From Gammaproteobacteria bacterium (GTDB lineage Bacteria > Pseudomonadota > Gammaproteobacteria > GRL18), in contig WFNB01000112.1 of NCBI GenBank assembly GCA_015488755.1, forward strand, positions 1-64,000: a stretch of DNA of 64,000 nucleotides. The letters run 5' to 3'. Every line of letters starts with the position of its first letter. Position 1 is the stretch's first letter. This document shows, piece by piece, positions 5,124 to 24,605 of the stretch. Below the pieces are notes generated by a model. It searched no databases and was not told the origin of the DNA. It saw nothing but the letters and a program-made list of their open reading frames with translations. The translations under genes and the position numbers were made by a program.

Positions 5124-5260
5124 GAAAAAAGGCAAAATAGCACCACAGAAATTCCTTTGGCTAGTCTTGCCTCTAATTTTGTGTGCCTAGACTTAGCGAG
5201 AGAAGAAGAACTGTAAAATTTTTAGATCATTTTTTGTAACAAATAATTGTGGAGAACACT

Positions 5261-6697
5261 ATGGAAGAAGCTGCAGCGGAGCAGAAGTATAACTTCGACG
5301 TTGTTCGCTGGTTTGCCGTAATGACCGCCGTCTATCTAGTCGTTGGTGCATTAGTTGGGGTGTATATTGCCTCAGAATTGGCTTGGCCAGTACTCAACTT
5401 TGACTCGCCTTACATCTCATTTGGTCGTCTAAGACCCTTGCACACCAATGCAGTAATTTTTGCTTATGGTGGTTGTATCTTGATGGCAACAGCCTTCTAT
5501 ACCGTACAGAGAACCTGTGCAGTTAGATTGTGGAGTGACAAAATGGCATGGTTCACCTTTATTGGTTGGAATCTTATCATTGTTTCTGCTGTTATTACTC
5601 TTCCATTAGGTATTACTCAGTCTAAAGAGTATGCTGAGCTAGAGTGGCCTATTGACTTAGCCATCGCAGTCGTCTGGTTATCCTTTATGTTTAACTTTAT
5701 GATGACAATTGCTAATCGTAAAACGTCGCATATTTATGTGTCAAACTGGTTCTTCATGGGTATGATGATTATGATCACTCTACTTCATGTCGTTAATAGT
5801 GCAGCAATCCCTGTTGGTTTATTTAAGTCCTATTCTGCCTATTCTGGTGTTCAGGATGCTATGATTCAGTGGTGGTGGGGACATAACGCGGTTGGTTTTT
5901 ATCTAACAGCAGGTTTCCTAGGTATTATGTACTACTTTGTGCCAAAACAGGCTAATCGCCCTGTGTTTTCTTATCGTTTATCTGTTATTCACTTCTGGGC
6001 ATTAATGTTCGGTTATGTATGGTTGGGTGCCCATCATCTTCAATATACTGCTCTGCCTGATTGGACAGGTTCTTTAGGTGCTGCGGTTTCTATTGCAATG
6101 ATCATTCCTTCATGGGGTGGTGCGGTTAACGGCATGATGACTCTGTCCGGTGCTTGGGATAAACTGCGGACTGATTATGTGTTACGCTTTTTAATTATCT
6201 CTTTAGCCTTTTATGCAATGTCTACTTTTGAAGGTCCAATTATGTCAATTAAGACAGTTAATGCACTGTCACACTATACTGACTGGACAATTGGTCATGT
6301 ACACTCAGGTGCTTTGGGTTGGGTTGCTATGGTTGGTATTGGTGCCTTATATCATATGATTCCAAAGGTTTTCCATACCCCTATTTATTCTAAAGCATTA
6401 ATTAATATGCATTTCTGGACAGCGACTATCGGTACTGTAATTTATGTGGTTGCTATGTGGGTCTCAGGTATTATGCAAGGCTTAATGTGGCGTGCTTATG
6501 ATGACTATGGCACATTGGCTTATACCTTTGCAGAAAGTGTGGAAGCCATGCATCCATACTATGCAATGCGCGCAATTGGTGGTGGTATCTTCTTGTTAGG
6601 TGCAATCATTATGCTGTTCAATATCATTATGACTGTCCTGAAAGCAAAAGGTTCAGGTTCAATCAAGGCGGCACAATCTGCTGCTGTAGCGGCGTAA
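5261..6697 (+). CDS. ccoN: cbb3-type cytochrome c oxidase subunit I
   Basis: CcoN is the catalytic haem-copper subunit that reduces oxygen to water at the inner membrane. The start at ATG 5261 (478 residues) is chosen because GGAG at 5251-5254 lies 6 nt before it; an in-frame GTG at 5249 overlaps that ribosome site and is unlikely. About twelve membrane helices are visible. Haem and copper ligands are present: His61 in RPLHTNAV, His208 in WWWGHN (CuB), a HH pair in GAHHLQYT, and two His in [10 protein letters not shown]. The MYYFVPK segment carries the active-site Tyr region of C-type oxidases. It is the first gene of ccoNOQP, with ccoO 13 nt downstream. It is preceded by two FNR boxes, as expected for a high-affinity microaerobic oxidase. 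Confidence 0.97.
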
Positions 6698-6710
6698 GGA
6701 GGACTTGATT

Positions 6711-7418
6711 ATGTCGGAAAATACACAACCAACTGGATTGCAGGACAAAGCAGAACGTAATGTCTGGCTATTTGCTTTTTTAACATTCCTGACAGTCTCT
6801 GTTGCAGGCTTAGTGGAAATTGTTCCTTTATTTTATCTTGATAGTGCGATGCCTGCGAAACACATCCCTGGTGTTGTCTGGAAGAGAGATGGTAAGTCTC
6901 TGGATGATTGGAAAGAAGGTGATGGGGTTCGTCCTCTAAAGCCTTTGGAGTTAGCCGGCCGTGATGTTTATCAGCGTGAGGGGTGTTATTTGTGTCATTC
7001 ACAAATGATCCGTCCTTTTCGTGATGAGAAAGAGCGTTATGGCCATTATTCATTGGCTTCTGAGTCAATGTATGATCATCCATTCCAATGGGGTTCAAAA
7101 CGTACTGGTCCCGATCTTGCTCGCGTAGGTGGCAAATACTCTGACGAATGGCATGTTGCGCATTTGACTGCTCCTCGTTCTGTGGTGCCTGAGTCTGTTA
7201 TGCCAAATTATCCATGGCTTTTGGAAAATACAGTTGATGGAGAAGGCCTAAAATCACATATGCGTGGTTTAAGAACGGTGGGTGTTCCTTACACAGATGC
7301 AGATATTGACAGTGCGTCTGCCATTACAGGTAAAACTGAAATGGATGCAGTAGTTGCTTATTTGCAGGTACTTGGAACAATGGTTAAATTCCAGGAAGGG
7401 GTAACCTATCGTGAGTAA
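6711..7418 (+). CDS. ccoO: cbb3-type cytochrome c oxidase subunit II (monohaem)
   Basis: CcoO carries electrons from CcoP or soluble donors to CcoN. The ATG at 6711 (235 residues) has an excellent AAGGAGG (6696-6702) 8 nt upstream, so the in-frame TTG at 6705 is rejected. One N-terminal transmembrane helix (about residues 20-42) anchors a periplasmic c-type domain. The single haem site is Cys92-Tyr-Leu-Cys95-His96, and a later VMPNYPW segment supplies the probable axial Met. The GTG start of ccoQ lies inside its last codons, which implies translational coupling. Confidence 0.96.
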
Positions 7419-14227: not shown

Positions 14228-15043
14228 ATGGGTATAGGTATTAATAATTCAAACTCGATTGGACGCTTGCTAAATCAACATGATAACCGTTTAGCGACAA
14301 ACTTTGCTCGTCTGGCCTCAGGTAAGCACATTAATAGTGCTAAAGACAATGCTGCTGGTTTGGCGATTGTTGAGCGCTTTGCTACACAGATAACGGGCAC
14401 CAGTCAGGGCTATCGCAATACCAACGATGGTATTTCTCTGGCACAGACAGCAGATGGTTATAGCGCACAAATTACCGATATGATGCAGCGTGGTCGTGAA
14501 TTAGCGGCACAAAGTGCTAATGGTTCACTCAGTGATAGTGATCGGGCAGCCTTGCAATCTGAGTTTTCTATGATTCAGGATGAGGTCAGCCGATTAACAG
14601 AATCTGCAGAGTTTAATGGCCAGAAACTACTCAACAAAGATGCCGAGCTACAGTTTCAAGTCGATGCCAATGCAGGTGATCAAGTCAGTGTTAAAACCGT
14701 TGACTTACAAAGTAGTCTAAGTAGTAGTGGCTTCTTTTCTGCTGATTTATCATCACAGGCAGGAGCATCCGGTGCTTTATCTGTCTTAGATGACTCTATG
14801 ACTCAGGTAAATACCCAAAGAGCAGAGTTTGGTGCAACGCTTAATCGTTTTGAAAGTATCGGTCGAAACCTATTGAATAAGGAAGAAAATCTTGCTGCGG
14901 CCAAGAGCCGGATTCTGGATACGGATTATGCCAAAACAATCAGTGAAAGAAATAAAGAATTATTGCTTAAAGATGCAGCAACGGCACTGAGTAGTCAGGC
15001 TAATTTTTCCGCACAGCAAATTTTAGGTTTATTGTCAGCTTAA
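14228..15043 (+). CDS. Flagellin without a variable domain
   Basis: The 271-residue flagellin has the D0/D1 N-terminal segment (LASGKHINSAKDNAAGLAI at about 28-46) and the matching C-terminal helical segment (LAAAKSRILDTDYAKT and an ending QANFSAQQILGLLSA). The central surface-exposed D2/D3 part is almost absent, so this is a minimal flagellin. GGGAGG (14217-14222) is 5 nt before the ATG. No other flagellar gene is in the window, so the filament genes must lie elsewhere. The stop shares one base with the start of the DUF389 gene, an unusual coupling. It is called fliC/flaA in other genomes; no symbol is assigned. Confidence 0.9.
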   Translation: MGIGINNSNSIGRLLNQHDNRLATNFARLASGKHINSAKDNAAGLAIVERFATQITGTSQGYRNTNDGISLAQTADGYSAQITDMMQRGRELAAQSANGSLSDSDRAALQSEFSMIQDEVSRLTESAEFNGQKLLNKDAELQFQVDANAGDQVSVKTVDLQSSLSSSGFFSADLSSQAGASGALSVLDDSMTQVNTQRAEFGATLNRFESIGRNLLNKEENLAAAKSRILDTDYAKTISERNKELLLKDAATALSSQANFSAQQILGLLSA

Positions 15044-16965
15044 TGAAGTATAAAAAATCTGCCCTCTTTATTTATGATGAGCAGTCTAAAGAATTACTTG
15101 ATACCATCATAGAAAACAAATGGGGAGCGAAGATTGTTGCCGTAGACAAGCAGCTGTTTTTAGCTGATCCTCTGGAATATTTTTCCATTGCCACTCACTT
15201 ACTACTTGCGGGTGACATGCAACTGATTGAAGAATTAATTGATTTTGCTTATACCCAAAGTATGAATGGTCAACATTGTACTTTGGGTTTTTTGCCTTTA
15301 GAAGAGCAAAAAACCTTACGTAAGTCTTATAAACTGTCCAATGACTTACAAGCAAACCTAGAAGTTGCCCTAAGAGAAGAGACTCAGGCCATCAATTTAA
15401 TTGAATGTAATGGCCATATTGTTCATTTTAAAGCTGTTATGGGACAAATTCCCTTATTAAGGGCTTGGCACTCAGATTCATCATTGTTTTCTTTTTGGCA
15501 GAACATTCTTCTTGGGATACAAGAATTTTTCCGCTTATCACTGACCAAGATTTCTATAGACACTCATAATGGTCGTCACTTAAGCAGTGTTGCCAGTGGC
15601 TTATTTGTGGTCAGTCAAAATCAGGGCAGTCGTTTATCTCGCGTCTTATTGCACAAAGGTTCCATGCGCTCAGAAAAAGTGTCATTGATTGTTATTTCAC
15701 CTTTTTCAGCAGTAGAATATTGCTTATTTTTATTCTCTTTAATTTTTCACACTCATAAAGAAAATCATCTACCGCATGCAGTGTCGAATATACAGAGCAA
15801 AGAACTGACTATTCACTGTGCGGATGACTCTGTTTTATCTGCACAGCTGGATGGTCATCAATCAGTATCCTTTCCACTGCATTTTAAGGTGCTTAAGCAA
15901 GCCCTTAAAATTAATGCTCCGGAACATTTCTGGGAAGCCAACCCGCTAGCAAATAATGATAAAGAAGTCATACGTAATCGAAATTTACCCGATGAAAAAG
16001 AAGTTGCTAAATACCACAAAAAACACTTACCTTTTTTCTCCGTTGCATCAGAAGAACGCTTTAAAGATTTATTTGTACAATTGCGTAATGATGCAAAGAT
16101 AAATTCTCTCTATATTGTGCTAATGCTATTGAGCACGGTCTTAGCCAGTTTTGGTTTATTTGCCAATAGCAGTGCCGTTGTGATTGGGGCTATGTTATTA
16201 GCCCCCTTAATGTCACCCATCATCTCTTTTTCAATGGGCTTGCTCAGAGATGATAAAAATATGTTTCTTAGTTCACTATTTAAAATACTATTGGGTGTTG
16301 TTCTGGCCTTAAGCGCTTCGTCTCTATTGACTGTTTTATTACCACAAGTGGATTTAAGTAATGAAATTAAGGCACGTATTCATCCCAATTTAATGGATTT
16401 AGGTATTGCTGTTTTCTCTGGTATTGCAGCGGCTTATACCAAAGCACATAAAGAATTATTAAATAACCTTGCGGGTGTTGCCATTGCGGTTGCTTTAGTT
16501 CCACCTCTTGCAGTAGCAGGTATTGGCTTGGGACGCTCTGACTTATATGTGTTTGAAGGTGCTCTACTACTTTTCATGACCAATATTATTGGTATTAGCC
16601 TATCAGCAATTGTTATGTTCCTATTTTTGGGCTTTTCAAATACGGTAAAAAGTAAAAAAAATATTATTTTTATATCACTTCTTTTACTGCTACTTTCTTA
16701 TCCATTGTACCGTTCGTATACTGATAGCCTACAGCGTTATCAAATCACGAAGCAATTAATGGGGCAAGCTATCACTATCAATAAACAAGCTGTGACGATA
16801 GAACGGGCGTCTATTGAATATCAAAATAATATAAAAATTATTAATATGAGTGTGGTACTTAAAAAAGCATTAACACCACAAGAACTGGAATTATTGAAAG
16901 TAAAAATTAATCAGCATATCAGTAGTGACTATCAGATAAGAATGAGTGTTAAGTTTATTTTATAG
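15043..16965 (+). CDS. TIGR00341 family membrane protein (DUF389)
   Basis: The 640-residue protein combines a soluble N-terminal half with a DUF389 membrane domain. Residues about 255-305 (ELTIHCADDSVLSAQLDG and PLHFKVLKQAL) resemble the C-terminal strand pattern of diacylglycerol-kinase-like domains, as found in the long form of TIGR00341. The membrane part (about 350-560) has the conserved AVVIGAMLLAPLMSPI, a GIAAAYTKAH loop and ALVPPLAVAGIG. A C-terminal region of about 60 residues is soluble. Function is unknown. Its ATG overlaps the flagellin stop by one base, so it should be translated from the flagellin message unless an internal promoter exists. Confidence 0.85.
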   Translation: MKYKKSALFIYDEQSKELLDTIIENKWGAKIVAVDKQLFLADPLEYFSIATHLLLAGDMQLIEELIDFAYTQSMNGQHCTLGFLPLEEQKTLRKSYKLSNDLQANLEVALREETQAINLIECNGHIVHFKAVMGQIPLLRAWHSDSSLFSFWQNILLGIQEFFRLSLTKISIDTHNGRHLSSVASGLFVVSQNQGSRLSRVLLHKGSMRSEKVSLIVISPFSAVEYCLFLFSLIFHTHKENHLPHAVSNIQSKELTIHCADDSVLSAQLDGHQSVSFPLHFKVLKQALKINAPEHFWEANPLANNDKEVIRNRNLPDEKEVAKYHKKHLPFFSVASEERFKDLFVQLRNDAKINSLYIVLMLLSTVLASFGLFANSSAVVIGAMLLAPLMSPIISFSMGLLRDDKNMFLSSLFKILLGVVLALSASSLLTVLLPQVDLSNEIKARIHPNLMDLGIAVFSGIAAAYTKAHKELLNNLAGVAIAVALVPPLAVAGIGLGRSDLYVFEGALLLFMTNIIGISLSAIVMFLFLGFSNTVKSKKNIIFISLLLLLLSYPLYRSYTDSLQRYQITKQLMGQAITINKQAVTIERASIEYQNNIKIINMSVVLKKALTPQELELLKVKINQHISSDYQIRMSVKFIL

Positions 16966-18580: not shown

Positions 18581-18783
18581 ATGTGTTCCTGATTAATTTA
18601 GGTTTAACCTGAGTGTTGAGTAAGATGATAATAAATATAACAGCGCTTAATAATCACTCTAAATCTATTTGATGTCAATAGCTAGTTATTCGTGACTATT
18701 CCTTCGGGTGAAGTCAAAATACTCTGGAGTGCATTGTTGGTTTAATGGGGTAAAGGGGAGAAATACTATTGGAATTATGAGTT

Positions 18784-18828
18784 AACAACCATCGTCTGAT
18801 GATTTTATAGATCTAGACAATGGTTGTT
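18784..18828 (-). terminator. Hairpin downstream of the c4-type cytochrome gene
   Basis: A 14-bp inverted repeat (18784-18797 and 18815-18828) with one non-Watson-Crick position lies 36 bases after the cytochrome stop. On the minus strand that position becomes a G-U pair, so the stem is complete there. The U tract is poor, so it may be a stability element rather than a strong terminator. Confidence 0.45.
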
Positions 18829-18864
18829 ATTATTGGTGTTGATATCTGAATTATTCTCAGAGAT

Positions 18865-19482
18865 TTATTTACTTGCACCGCCACCACTGACGTAGTATTC
18901 AATTAACGCCTGTTTATCTTTATCAGACAATTTTTTGAATTTCTTTTTCATTTTTTTTGGCATTGGCTGATCGCCATTGCTGAGCTTTTCAAAGGCTCGG
19001 GTTAGATATTCACGTGACTGTCCAGCAAGTAGTGAGGCATCATCTTCAGGATTTGTCGCACCGTCAGAATGGCATTTTTCACATTTATGCTTATGTCGTT
19101 TGGCTCCTTTTTGAGCCAGTGCGGCATCGGATTTACCAAAATGCGGCTGATATTTTTGGCTGGAATAATATTTTGCCAGTGCTTCAATGTCAGCATCGCT
19201 CATATCTTTGGTAATGATATTCATGTCAGTTTCATCAGCATCATCTGGCTTAAATTTATCACCTATTCTTTCATTGCTCTTGTACTCATTGAGCATATCA
19301 GTAAGAGCATCCAGTGAAAAACCAGCAATATTGGGTACTTTATTGTATTTGCTATTGCCATCTTTGCCATGACAGGCGGCGCATTTATCTGAGGCAATGC
19401 TTGCACCATCAGCCATTGCAGATAAATTAATCAGGCTAAGCCCAGTTAAACTAAGGGTTAAAATAATGGTTTTGATTTTCAC
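18865..19482 (-). CDS. c4-type dihaem cytochrome c, periplasmic
   Basis: A 205-residue exported protein with a signal peptide of about 24 residues ending SAMA. It has two haem sites, CAACHGKDGN (about 34-38) and CEKCHSDGA (about 135-139), each followed by a cytochrome c domain with candidate Met ligands (TDMNII/DMSD and QPMPKKM). The layout matches cytochrome c4, which passes electrons to cbb3 and other oxidases. It is the last gene of a three-gene run with a NapC-like quinol dehydrogenase and an ankyrin protein. That suggests quinol-derived electrons pass through this cytochrome to the oxidase. The C-terminus is lysine-rich. Confidence 0.85.
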   Translation of the reverse strand: MKIKTIILTLSLTGLSLINLSAMADGASIASDKCAACHGKDGNSKYNKVPNIAGFSLDALTDMLNEYKSNERIGDKFKPDDADETDMNIITKDMSDADIEALAKYYSSQKYQPHFGKSDAALAQKGAKRHKHKCEKCHSDGATNPEDDASLLAGQSREYLTRAFEKLSNGDQPMPKKMKKKFKKLSDKDKQALIEYYVSGGGASK

Positions 19483-19555
19483 TAAAATTTCCTCCTATGG
19501 ATAGTGATATATTCCCCCCAATAATAGCTATTATTGGGGAGCTAGATCTCATTGT

Positions 19556-20506
19556 CTAGTGTTTCTTGTTTTTATCATATTGATAGACTTCTTTGGCATA
19601 ATCGAATCCAGAGAGTCCATCTTTATCTTTTATACTTGGATCGGCACCGTATTGATAGAGTAATATGGCAGCATCAAAATTTCGTTGGATATACGCTTCC
19701 ATAACGGCGGTGCTACCATTAATATCTTGGTGATTGGGGTCGGCACCACTTTCAAGTAATAATTTCATGGCATTTAATTGATCGGCTTCACTGGCCCAAA
19801 ATAGTGCAGTGGAACCGTCGTTACTTTGTGCTTCTAATGAACAACCTTGTTTGAGTAATTCTTTGATAACACTGATCTGACCGTGTGCGGCGGCAACCAT
19901 CAGTGCGGTGGCGTTATCTTTATTGTGAATTTCTGTATGAACACCTGCTTTGAGTAGAATTTTAATAATTTCAAGATGTCCTCTTTGGGCGGCAGCCATT
20001 AAAGCCGTATTGCCATCTTTGTCTTGTGTGTCAATATTGGCTCCGGCCTGAATAAGCTCTTTTAAGACTTTAGGATGATTGTAGATAGCAGACATCATCA
20101 GTGCATCCCAACCCGAGCGAGTTTTATTTTGTGTTTTTGCCCCATTTTTTAATAATAGATGGGTAAGTTTGGGATAACCACCTTCAGCTGAAAATGTTAG
20201 TGCTGTGCAACCGGGGCTTGTTCTTATATTGACATCAGCCCCTTTGTTTATCAATAAGTGAGCCACATCATCATTGCCTTCTTCAATGGCAAACATAAGC
20301 GCTGTTTTACCATAGCGACCATGAGCGTTCACACTAACACCTTGTTGCAACAAAGTGTTGACCTGATCAATGTCTCCAATCATAGAGGCCTGCATCAACT
20401 CTTTTTCTTGCATAGAGGGCTGATATTGCTTTTCTACGGCTGAGGCATTGGTCGAAACCATGCTAAAAATTGAGTAGACAATTAAGAAAATAATCGTATT
20501 ATTCAT
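19556..20506 (-). CDS. Exported ankyrin-repeat protein
   Basis: The 316-residue protein has a signal peptide (about 1-23, NASA/VE end) and about eight ankyrin repeats from about residue 35 to the end, with units such as GKTALMFAIEEGNDDVAHLL, GNTALMAAAQRGHLEIIKIL and GSTALFWASEADQLNAMKLL. Ankyrin repeats bind proteins; periplasmic examples such as AnkB-type proteins can protect or support redox enzymes. It sits between the NapC-like cytochrome (5 nt away) and the c4-type cytochrome (73 nt away). It is therefore likely a periplasmic partner or scaffold for those cytochromes. Confidence 0.85.
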   Translation of the reverse strand: MNNTIIFLIVYSIFSMVSTNASAVEKQYQPSMQEKELMQASMIGDIDQVNTLLQQGVSVNAHGRYGKTALMFAIEEGNDDVAHLLINKGADVNIRTSPGCTALTFSAEGGYPKLTHLLLKNGAKTQNKTRSGWDALMMSAIYNHPKVLKELIQAGANIDTQDKDGNTALMAAAQRGHLEIIKILLKAGVHTEIHNKDNATALMVAAAHGQISVIKELLKQGCSLEAQSNDGSTALFWASEADQLNAMKLLLESGADPNHQDINGSTAVMEAYIQRNFDAAILLYQYGADPSIKDKDGLSGFDYAKEVYQYDKNKKH

Positions 20507-20511
20507 TGTTA

Positions 20512-21093
20512 TTAGGCATCCTTATCGTCTTCATCATCAGGCTCTTCTGGATCTTCGTGAGCAATTCCTTGGTGACAATCAATACATGTTTTACCTTGGA
20601 GCTGTGCCCGAGGATGTTTTTTTCTGGCCATTCGTTCTTGTGAACTGAATTCCATATTATCAAAGCTATGGCAATTTCGACACTCTCTGGAATCGGTTGA
20701 CTTCATTTTTTCCCATACTCTTGAGGCCATACCCCAACGATGTGCTTCATATTTTTCTTTGGTATCAATGGTGCCTAGTATTTCATGCATGACATCTTTA
20801 TAGGCAAGAATTTTAGCTTTCATTTTAGGGAAAAACTGTTTTGGGACATGACAGTCAGAGCAGGTGGCTTGGACGCCAGAAGCATTTTTATAATGGACAG
20901 TTTCTTTGTATTCTTTTAAATTGACCTTCATGCTATGGCATGAGGTACAAAATTCCATTTGATTTGTGTAGGCAAGAATGGAATTAAATCCGGCGACTGA
21001 TAAGACACCTAAAAAGAATATAAATAAGATAGAAAAAAGATATTTTTTTGAAAAAAAACGCTGACCTTGAGCTGATGACAGATTATCAGTCAT
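20512..21093 (-). CDS. NapC/NirT family tetrahaem c-type cytochrome (membrane quinol dehydrogenase)
   Basis: The 193-residue protein has one N-terminal membrane helix (about 15-37) and four CXXCH sites: CTSCH, CSDCH, CRNCH and CIDCH. The NapC/NirT family oxidises membrane quinol and passes electrons to periplasmic reductases. Length and haem number match NapC. No nitrate, nitrite, TMAO or other reductase gene is adjacent; the neighbours are an ankyrin protein and a c4-type cytochrome. It ends in an acidic stretch (DPEEPDDEDDKDA) absent from typical NapC. Its true partner is therefore uncertain. The C-terminal IDCHQGIAH matches the family's last haem region. Confidence 0.88.
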   Translation of the reverse strand: MTDNLSSAQGQRFFSKKYLFSILFIFFLGVLSVAGFNSILAYTNQMEFCTSCHSMKVNLKEYKETVHYKNASGVQATCSDCHVPKQFFPKMKAKILAYKDVMHEILGTIDTKEKYEAHRWGMASRVWEKMKSTDSRECRNCHSFDNMEFSSQERMARKKHPRAQLQGKTCIDCHQGIAHEDPEEPDDEDDKDA

Positions 21094-21557: not shown

Positions 21558-24500
21558 ATGGATCGGGCGCAGAACAAAAAAATAAAACACAAATCCGCAA
21601 TAGAAAAAAAATCAAAGGGTACGTATAAGGTTGTTTTTAAAGGTCATCTACTTCCTGGTTTTTCTCAAGAGCAGGTGATTGGTAACATTGCTTCATTAAC
21701 AAAGCTCTCACCAGAGAAAGTTCAGAGTAAAATCTTTTGTGGTAAAAGCGTTGTTATTCGTCGCACAAATACAGAAGCTCACGCCAAACAATTACAGGTA
21801 TTATTTACAGAAGCAGGATTAGAAGTGGTTATTTTAAAGACCATGAAAAAAGTTCGGCATCAACATACCCAGCCTAAAGAAAAGTCGAATAAAGAGATTA
21901 TTGCCAAAGAAATTAAAACAACCATAAAAAAACGTAAGCTGCCTATTGTTGCTATTATTTTATGGGGTGTCTTTTTTGTAGTGCTGTTTAATTTATGGAA
22001 TCAATACCATATAGATGTGAGCACCCCAGATGAAATTGTTAAAATTGAACAAGCTTTAGCTGATAAGTCCTTATTATTTCTTGCTCATATTAATGTTGAG
22101 GAGTTAATAGCACGAGAAGATTTTTTTAATGAACTCTTTTCTGATACACAGAGCAAGCAAGTTCAGTCTTTAAAAAATAATGGTCTTATTGCTTCTGATA
22201 GCGATAAAGGTATTGCTCATATTGTTTCAGGTGCTTATTTTGAGGATCAAACTCTTGTTTCACAGACAATTATTACCGGTCAATTTGATGTGCAGTCGGT
22301 TTATCGTTATTTATTAAGTCAGTATGTAGTAAAAACGCTTTCTAATGTTAATTTTATGCACCTTCGTATTAGCAATAAAACTATGAGTCAATGTGAACAA
22401 TCACAATCAATGGAGGTGTCTATTGAGCCAGAGCGTATTATTATTTCTAGTGAAGGGCATCTTGATGATGCTCATAACATATTAGCCAATGGGGGAAATA
22501 ATGATAAGGCGCTAACGTCTTGGTTTGAGTATCAAGATGATAAGTTAGTTAGTTTGGCAATTTTTGCTCCTCAAAAAGATCAGTTAGAGACAAAAACACC
22601 AGAATTAGGCATGGCTGGTTTTTTTGCTAAAGATTTTGCTAAAAAAAATCAAGCATTGGAGAGTCTTTTCTTTGGTGTTGGCTTACAACTTTTTCCTGCT
22701 GCCGCTATTATTGATGCACGTTTAAATAGTACTGATGAGGTTTGGCTTTCAAGTATTGAGCAGAAGCTCCAAACTCAGATGAGACAATTAAAAGAAAAGA
22801 GTGTTGGTCTGGAGAGTGTGCTAAATGTGCTTACTAAAGTAAGTATTCAAGATAAGACTTCAGGTGCAGTGAGCATGCAATTACAAGTGGATAATGAATT
22901 AAAAAAATCCATTGTGCAATCAAGTCAAGATATGCTTGGACGTTTTTTCAGTGTTGATATTTCGGGTAATAATGCCGTAAAAGCTGCCCAGATGCCAGAA
23001 CGTTTGAATAATGATCCACAAGTGTTTTGGCCTCAATATAATCAACATAAACTAAAAACATTTAACACTGCATTTAATGTTTTTTTTAAACCTGTATGGA
23101 CTCGGGGCCCTTTTGCTATAGAAGTGGATGATCTCTTATTGCAAACGGATGATGGTGTGGATCATATTGTCTTGCAATTAGACGCTAAAGGACAAAATAT
23201 TGATAATGTAGGAGATAAATCGGCTTCTTTGCTGATCAAGTCCGTTCTGGATGAGCGGGGTCAGAACCTAATAGCTCCCTTGGGCTGCGGGCATAGCATG
23301 GCGAATAAAACTGTGTTCAGTCGTTTTGGTGGTGCTCGAACAGCCTCAATTAAGGGGAAACTGGTTCATTATAATGAGTTATCTGCAAAGAAAAAAATTA
23401 AGCTTAAAAAAGGTGTAAAACAAGCACAAATAAAGTCTATTAATGGTGAAATCAAACTTAATCTAGCGACTAAAGTTGAGCGAAAAGAGCTTGTTAAAGA
23501 GGATAAAAACCAATTGTTAAAGCAGTTTAACAGCCGAATTTTGTTTAAACCGTCTAATGCACAAACACTGTCGTATACACTTTCAGGTTCTACAGAAAAT
23601 ATTCTAGCTATTCGGGCACTGAATAAAGATAGAAAATATCTCAGCCGTTCGAGTATGACGGCAATGGATAATGCCTTTTCTGCAGGACGTTCTGTGACGC
23701 AAGAGTATGCCGGTCATATTGCTTTTATTGAAGTGGTTTATGCTGCCAAATTAGAGACACTGACTTATCCTATTGGCATTAAAAATTTACCCCCTTACCC
23801 AACACCAGAACAAGGTGTTTATGAGCTAGAAGGCTTTCAAGTATCCACATTAGAAAAATGGGATCAGGAGTATCAGGAACTAGAGCCCTTAAGCTTTGCT
23901 AAAGAAAATAACTGGTTGGGAAAACAAAATGCACGCTGGCATGCTGGGCCCTTAAACTTAGCTTTATACGCATTGAAAACCAGCCGTTTTTGGGGTACAA
24001 CTGGCTCATTACAAATAAAGACACATCGTATTGATGAGTTACAACATAATTTATCTGCTTTGGAAATTTTTATTGAGTATCCACAGCCAGATAAGAAGGG
24101 GCATCGCGGTAAATCGTATTACTACCCTTTAGAGGCCAAAGGCCATTATATCGAAAAAGAATTTGTACCAGATGAGAAACAGCCTTATATGGATGGTCAA
24201 TTGGCCTTTTCTTTACCCTATAAAAATGACAAGATACCCTTAAAAACATTAAAGGGTGAAGTCAATATTCATTTACCTATTTCTACCCATAGTGTTACGT
24301 TTACGAACTTGAGTATTGGTGCTATCTGGGAAGACGAAGGCCTACGTTTAAAATTAGTGCGATTGGGTAATGATGAAATGGAATTTAAAGTGCTCAATAA
24401 ACGCAGTAGACTATTAAAATTGATTTTATTAAATGCGGATAATAAACGTATTTCTTCTGCCAGTATTTATCGCAGTAGTCATGATGAACAACGAGATGGT

Positions 24501-24605
24501 AATATCGTTGTGAGTTATCATGGTAAACCAATAAAAGCCCGTGTGACCGTTTCAGAAGGTCAGAAAATAAAAACCTATCCTTTTGAGTTTACGATAAAAA
24601 ACTGA
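21558..24605 (+). CDS. Large membrane-anchored protein of unknown function with a small N-terminal cytoplasmic domain
   Basis: The 1015-residue protein has a basic N-terminus, then a compact domain at about 22-93 (YKVVFKGHLLPGFSQEQVIG and VVIRRTNTEAHAKQLQVLF). I associate this pattern with a small domain seen at the start of several gammaproteobacterial membrane proteins. A single membrane helix at about 131-151 follows. About 860 residues would be periplasmic and are rich in beta-type segments with few cysteines. No enzyme motif is visible. The start has GAGG at 21545-21548. A TATAAT box (21488-21493) and a TGTCA/TGACA operator-like cluster precede it. The next gene follows 10 nt later. A structural or envelope-related role is possible but unproven. 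Confidence 0.6.
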   Translation: MDRAQNKKIKHKSAIEKKSKGTYKVVFKGHLLPGFSQEQVIGNIASLTKLSPEKVQSKIFCGKSVVIRRTNTEAHAKQLQVLFTEAGLEVVILKTMKKVRHQHTQPKEKSNKEIIAKEIKTTIKKRKLPIVAIILWGVFFVVLFNLWNQYHIDVSTPDEIVKIEQALADKSLLFLAHINVEELIAREDFFNELFSDTQSKQVQSLKNNGLIASDSDKGIAHIVSGAYFEDQTLVSQTIITGQFDVQSVYRYLLSQYVVKTLSNVNFMHLRISNKTMSQCEQSQSMEVSIEPERIIISSEGHLDDAHNILANGGNNDKALTSWFEYQDDKLVSLAIFAPQKDQLETKTPELGMAGFFAKDFAKKNQALESLFFGVGLQLFPAAAIIDARLNSTDEVWLSSIEQKLQTQMRQLKEKSVGLESVLNVLTKVSIQDKTSGAVSMQLQVDNELKKSIVQSSQDMLGRFFSVDISGNNAVKAAQMPERLNNDPQVFWPQYNQHKLKTFNTAFNVFFKPVWTRGPFAIEVDDLLLQTDDGVDHIVLQLDAKGQNIDNVGDKSASLLIKSVLDERGQNLIAPLGCGHSMANKTVFSRFGGARTASIKGKLVHYNELSAKKKIKLKKGVKQAQIKSINGEIKLNLATKVERKELVKEDKNQLLKQFNSRILFKPSNAQTLSYTLSGSTENILAIRALNKDRKYLSRSSMTAMDNAFSAGRSVTQEYAGHIAFIEVVYAAKLETLTYPIGIKNLPPYPTPEQGVYELEGFQVSTLEKWDQEYQELEPLSFAKENNWLGKQNARWHAGPLNLALYALKTSRFWGTTGSLQIKTHRIDELQHNLSALEIFIEYPQPDKKGHRGKSYYYPLEAKGHYIEKEFVPDEKQPYMDGQLAFSLPYKNDKIPLKTLKGEVNIHLPISTHSVTFTNLSIGAIWEDEGLRLKLVRLGNDEMEFKVLNKRSRLLKLILLNADNKRISSASIYRSSHDEQRDGNIVVSYHGKPIKARVTVSEGQKIKTYPFEFTIKN

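Follow-up and report, generated by a model that had tools for sequence, protein, structure and literature searches.

A NapC-family tetrahaem cytochrome and an exported ankyrin protein form a conserved gene pair, usually beside FCSD, in sulfur-oxidising marine bacteria

In sulfur-oxidising marine bacteria the genes for a NapC/NirT-family tetrahaem cytochrome and an exported ankyrin-repeat protein (Ank) form a fixed pair, which usually lies beside the genes for flavocytochrome c sulfide dehydrogenase (FCSD, fccAB). The pair is present in the window, by which we mean the whole 64,000-nucleotide stretch analysed here (positions 1 to 64,000 of contig WFNB01000112.1, assembly GCA_015488755.1, from a gammaproteobacterium whose 3.5 Mb genome, G000, is in 122 contigs and is estimated to be 100% complete), where it is accompanied by a dihaem c4-type cytochrome gene and fccAB is absent. 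On the strength of sequence comparison we propose, at a probability of about 0.55, that NapC and Ank make up an electron port coupled to quinone, whose periplasmic partner can be exchanged: this partner would be FCSD in the relatives and is probably a heptahaem protein in the window's genome.

The three genes lie on the minus strand of the window and are confirmed to be what the first-pass annotation of this DNA took them for, at the coordinates that it gave. The napC gene (20512–21093) encodes a 193-aa protein with four CXXCH motifs (PF03264, E = 2.6e-69), ank (19556–20506) a 316-aa protein (PF12796, E = 2.8e-94), and the third gene (18865–19482) a 205-aa dihaem cytochrome with two CXXCH motifs and two cytochrome c domains, which we call c4'. 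Gaps of 5 bp (napC/ank) and 73 bp (ank/c4') separate them, and the c4' gene has a GTG start with AGGAGG upstream. An N-terminal membrane anchor, the four haem motifs and the PF03264 domain give the window NapC the features of the NapC/NirT family, and its acidic C-terminal tail, CIDCHxGIAHE(E/D)PxEP, belongs to a subtype associated with Fcc and Ank. Residues K94, K99 and D100 are invariant in the NapC alignment; their match in NrfH to the Lys and Asp near haem 1, which in NrfH and CymA serve as quinone site and ligand, is only a loosely aligned one. The N terminus of Ank is a signal-like helix ending in NASA, followed by VEK, and the AF2 model of the protein (pLDDT 92.8) consists of this helix and an ankyrin solenoid. 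A strong hairpin with no U-tract is predicted on the minus strand in the gap between ank and c4' (19514–19541, fold z = -4.5) and is possibly a processing or stability element; we rejected it as a conserved feature, since only the window has it and none is found at the ank-fccA junction of the relatives.

On one side the locus is flanked by genes for a TetR regulator and the radical-SAM protein MnmL, and on the other by genes for a 1015-aa protein and an MddA-like protein. The 1015-aa protein (window 21558–24605), which has no Pfam or NCBIfam match, is encoded divergently from napC and is kept beside it in the order. Also kept in the syntenic block is a DUF389 membrane protein (window 15043–16965) with weak similarity to lipid kinases in its N-terminal part. 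The annotated neighbours bear out the earlier statement that no terminal reductase adjoins the three genes within the window.

The association of napC with ank extends far beyond this genome. A profile of the Ank family, run against a single random draw of 274 genomes from the class, gave 19 matches at E ≤ 1.7e-107, distributed over 13 families, and every one of them lies directly beside napC on the same strand. The next match, in G009 (2.6e-93), is weaker by 14 orders of magnitude, is not next to a NapC gene and lies about 4 kb from fccAB; generic ankyrins follow at 1e-70 and weaker. Since all 19 of the best matches in the class adjoin NapC, this ankyrin subfamily is NapC-dedicated, and napC-ank is a conserved unit across many families, beyond chance linkage. 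When contigs were scanned with an Ank alignment built from the order, the patterns proved too specific to reach much outside the same clade. The first-pass annotation had treated all three genes as one unit; this holds for napC and ank, but not for the c4-type gene as a fixed third member, since the third gene is not constant and FccA or other dihaem families fill its place. The annotation had also named the arrangement that would speak against it, a NapC always beside a known reductase with the ankyrin and c4 genes elsewhere, and this is not what the genomes contain.

FccAB is the commonest, yet not the sole, neighbour of the NapC-dedicated ankyrin subfamily. Among 23 other genomes of the order, many of them fragmented MAGs, 14 encode NapC at 68–82% identity. 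Ten complete loci in the order have napC-ank and then a dihaem gene and a gene for a 433-aa flavoprotein, and in an eleventh (L044) the contig ends inside the dihaem gene. The flavoprotein is identified as FccB (PF21706, PF09242; PDB 1fcd_A, E = 2.5e-158) and its dihaem neighbour as FccA (PDB 1fcd_C, 1.5e-50). Where the relatives' contigs are long enough, they show the window's flanks, with the radical-SAM and TetR genes at one end of the locus and the genes for the 1015-aa and MddA-like proteins at the other. Of the 274 genomes sampled from the class, 87 have FccB, namely 15 of the 19 that carry napC-ank and 72 of the 255 others (Fisher p = 1.6e-5, a value that ignores relatedness), and fccAB is adjacent to the pair in 10 of the 19. 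Outside the order, 22 sampled genomes have napC, with or without ank, on the same strand as fccB and no more than 3 kb away, and 17 sampled families have a NapC gene by fccAB. The association is not universal: fccAB stands alone in G003 and G120, and in several genomes it lies by a napC that has no ank.

Some further NapC arrangements deserve mention in their own right. In G075 (L181:4882–8421) a gene for a DmsE/MtrA-type decahaem cytochrome (TIGR03508) and one more ORF come after napC-fccA-fccB, which puts FCSD beside a possible outer-membrane electron conduit. In G200 and G260 (L183, L187) NapC lies by a PdsA-like dihaem with decahaem and ~700-aa genes near, and an MtrB/PioB porin is confirmed in L187. 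Another dihaem-NapC pair, with neither ankyrin nor fccAB, is present in G249 and G133 (L185, L186). The napC-ank pair of G022 (L040:3503–6849) adjoins an opposite-strand cluster that encodes a ferredoxin-type protein, a TorD-like protein (PF02613), a dihaem and a QrcC/ArrB-like Fe-S protein, with no fccAB at that locus. Finally, G009 encodes a 921-aa NapC fusion protein with six CXXCH motifs (L197:4696–7461), whose C-terminal part is an ethylbenzene-dehydrogenase-like haem-binding domain (PF09459), and similarly long NapC ORFs are found in several members of the order.

In the window's own genome FccB is absent, both by profile search and by protein search of the whole genome. The relatives (synteny L038, L047) carry fccAB in the part of the block that corresponds to the gap between the TetR gene and c4' (18581–18864), and a tblastn search of this gap with FccB gave zero matches to any fccB remnant. 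The contig is continuous across the site, so the absence of fccAB at the locus is not a contig-end effect. In a NapC tree made by a quick method, the window protein is nested in the clade linked to ank and fcc, as sister to the proteins of L035 (82% identity) and L036. Because NapC nests in this fccAB-linked clade and the flanks are syntenic, we conclude that fccAB was lost here; the window represents a derived, fccAB-less state and the relatives' napC-ank-fccA-fccB the usual one. A NapC with no enzyme beside it, as the first-pass annotation described it for the window, is thus not the rule among its nearest relatives.

The dihaem that now follows ank is not a diverged FccA. It is about 40% identical to the relatives' FccA and 72% identical to the second dihaem of G019, and its best match among solved structures is 1fcd_C (3.6e-22). 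A first dihaem tree was also made by the quick method; in a more careful one c4' groups (99/97) with dihaems of G019, G023, G275 and G271 and falls outside the FccA clade (branches 100/99 and 99/97), which rules out that origin. These four dihaems are all encoded near napC, and in three of the genomes (G019, G271 and G275) a gene for a heptahaem lipoprotein is near as well. We also considered charge matching between the NapC tail and its dihaem and rejected it, since the net charge of c4' is within the FccA range and nap-type tails can be acidic too.

The heptahaem lipoprotein (~805 aa) is encoded in a cluster with PpiC and redoxin genes. In G000 this cluster (85% identity) is at L202:3921–8523 on contig C104, unlinked to the window's locus, where c4' remains by ank. 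Further loci are L178/L213, L180, L214, L042 and L203, and the protein is 69–86% identical across families. The heptahaem-PpiC-redoxin cluster adjoins napC-ank in G090 and G271, and the heptahaem gene does so in G275; in G271 the order heptahaem-PpiC-redoxin-NapC-Ank occupies a single strand and c4' is encoded divergently. In G019 the order over two contigs is rSAM-TetR-[heptahaem-PpiC-c4'-redoxin-FccB-FccA]-Ank-NapC, the contigs being taken to adjoin because the PpiC gene is split between them and because of their flanks. Among the napC-ank genomes of the class, all four that lack FccB (G000, G090, G271 and G275) have the heptahaem gene, a count that refers to napC-ank genomes only. The order member G022 also has it; the exception is G020, a fragmented MAG with napC-ank, in which the searches gave no FccB and no heptahaem gene. 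The lipoprotein has no informative match in Pfam, NCBIfam or PDB, and its AlphaFold model has a pLDDT of 28. The PpiC neighbour made the MccA/SirA octahaem sulfite reductase a candidate identity, which we rejected on the absence of both a CX11-19CH eighth haem motif and a PDB match. Elsewhere in G000 (contig C3, L206:3616–7214) two adjacent multihaem proteins are encoded with nine and eight CXXCH motifs, the first with a membrane part.

Several known systems share parts of this arrangement. The relatives' operon holds a true FccB and FccA like those of Allochromatium vinosum (PDB 1fcd), but G000 has no protein with the FccB domains PF21706 and PF09242, the window dihaem is of another clade, and the textbook FCSD feeds cytochrome c with neither NapC nor ankyrin. 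A published comparison found the surroundings of fccAB not to be conserved (PMC6382920). In S. sediminis cymA is next to pdsA, which places a NapC-family tetrahaem by a c4-like dihaem shuttle (PMC8805035); c4' matches the PdsA model (1.2e-38), but its 132.9 bits fall below the curated cut-off of 330 bits, and in the window the ankyrin gene separates napC from the dihaem. No mtrCAB porin-cytochrome genes are near the three genes in the window. G000 also has a separate, ordinary nap operon with its own NapC (L001/L205, C120), which is of the same family and has the same haem layout as the window NapC; however, the two are 49% identical, lie in different regions of the tree and differ in their tails (AHHLPxG in the nap protein, AHE(E/D)PxEP in the window's), and the window gene has no napAB linkage. 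AnkB of Pseudomonas aeruginosa is likewise a periplasmic ankyrin encoded with a haem protein, KatB, for whose full activity it is needed (PMC2830190), although that partner is a catalase.

From the gene content, conservation, phylogeny and co-occurrence described above, together with the loss of fccAB, we infer an electron path, its direction, a docking role for Ank and a present partner as follows. NapC, anchored in the inner membrane, would trade electrons with the quinone pool, a soluble dihaem cytochrome would ferry them between NapC and a periplasmic partner enzyme, and exported Ank would hold or mature this assembly at the face of NapC. With FCSD as the partner, as in most relatives, FccB would oxidise sulfide and FccA relay the electrons to NapC, which could hand them to quinone, so that NapC and FCSD together would do the work of a sulfide:quinone oxidoreductase. 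In G000, with fccAB gone, NapC-Ank has been kept with c4' and would most likely serve the heptahaem lipoprotein encoded on C104; the earlier suggestion that the ankyrin protein docks an unlinked partner is thus plausible. Passing electrons from sulfide to quinone releases free energy, which makes inward flow the more probable course where FCSD is the partner. The NapC relatives characterised to date mostly carry out quinol oxidation. Exchange with quinone may run either way in this family, by analogy with ImoA, a proposed quinone reductase that yet oxidises quinol in vivo (PMC9600427), and with CymA, for which both quinol oxidation and quinone reduction are reported (PMC6295460). A fuller version, to which we would give rather less than even odds, is that NapC-Ank is an undescribed docking port that wires FccAB, or a new heptahaem lipoprotein enzyme, to quinone and not to cytochrome c, with Ank as a dedicated scaffold, and that the window's genome has switched from sulfide to the heptahaem partner.

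Electrons might instead flow outward, with NapC oxidising quinol and passing electrons through the dihaem to the cytochrome c pool and a cbb3 oxidase, the bypass of bc1 that the first-pass annotation had suggested as one possibility. The window also encodes a cbb3 oxidase (COX1 5249–6697, FixO 6705–7418), and c4 cytochromes can donate to terminal oxidases. The NapC-family proteins CymA and ImoA, moreover, oxidise quinol in vivo (PMC9600427). However, since G000 has a gene for cytochrome c1, with cytochrome b and Rieske-like ORFs next to it, such a bypass is not required and would be redundant and less energy-conserving, and what is conserved beside the pair is FccAB or the heptahaem cluster and not an oxidase; we therefore regard outward flow of this kind as unlikely.

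Quinol might also drive a reductase, by way of NapC and FccA or c4'; FccB or the heptahaem protein would then reduce sulfur or some other acceptor in the periplasm. NapC-family proteins typically have this function, and the napC-ank-fccAB block lies directly by a nap operon in three members of the order (L037, L041, L052), but FCSD is held to be a sulfide oxidase, and the titles of matching records and the RuBisCO encoded in the window suggest hosts that live autotrophically by oxidising sulfide, which makes a reductase role rather improbable. Nor do the three genes have much of the look of a remnant, left without a dedicated partner after fccAB was lost and bound to decay. Such decay may be seen in G004, where short, decayed napC and ank fragments (L053:9594–10119) lie near a formate-dehydrogenase-like region, and fccAB is indeed absent from G000; the window genes, however, are intact, with conserved haem motifs and a NapC 82% identical to that of relatives, and c4' belongs to a specific, supported clade and is no random neighbour, so that we think a remnant very improbable.

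Our search of the open literature, with subscription papers outside its scope, found no paper on a unit of ankyrin, NapC and c4 proteins, nor on NapC with FCSD, in keeping with the earlier view that no system of such composition has been described. Textbooks present FCSD as a sulfide:cytochrome c enzyme and set it apart from sulfide:quinone oxidoreductase. An A. vinosum fccAB mutant oxidises sulfide like the wild type, and the role of FccAB has been called unresolved (PMC11267869). The heptahaem lipoprotein is an unstudied candidate for an alternative partner of NapC-Ank. NapC by fccAB, often with its dedicated ankyrin, suggests a path, open to experiment, by which electrons from FCSD could reach quinone, and such a path would alter the energy balance drawn up for many sulfur oxidisers of vents, seeps and symbioses.
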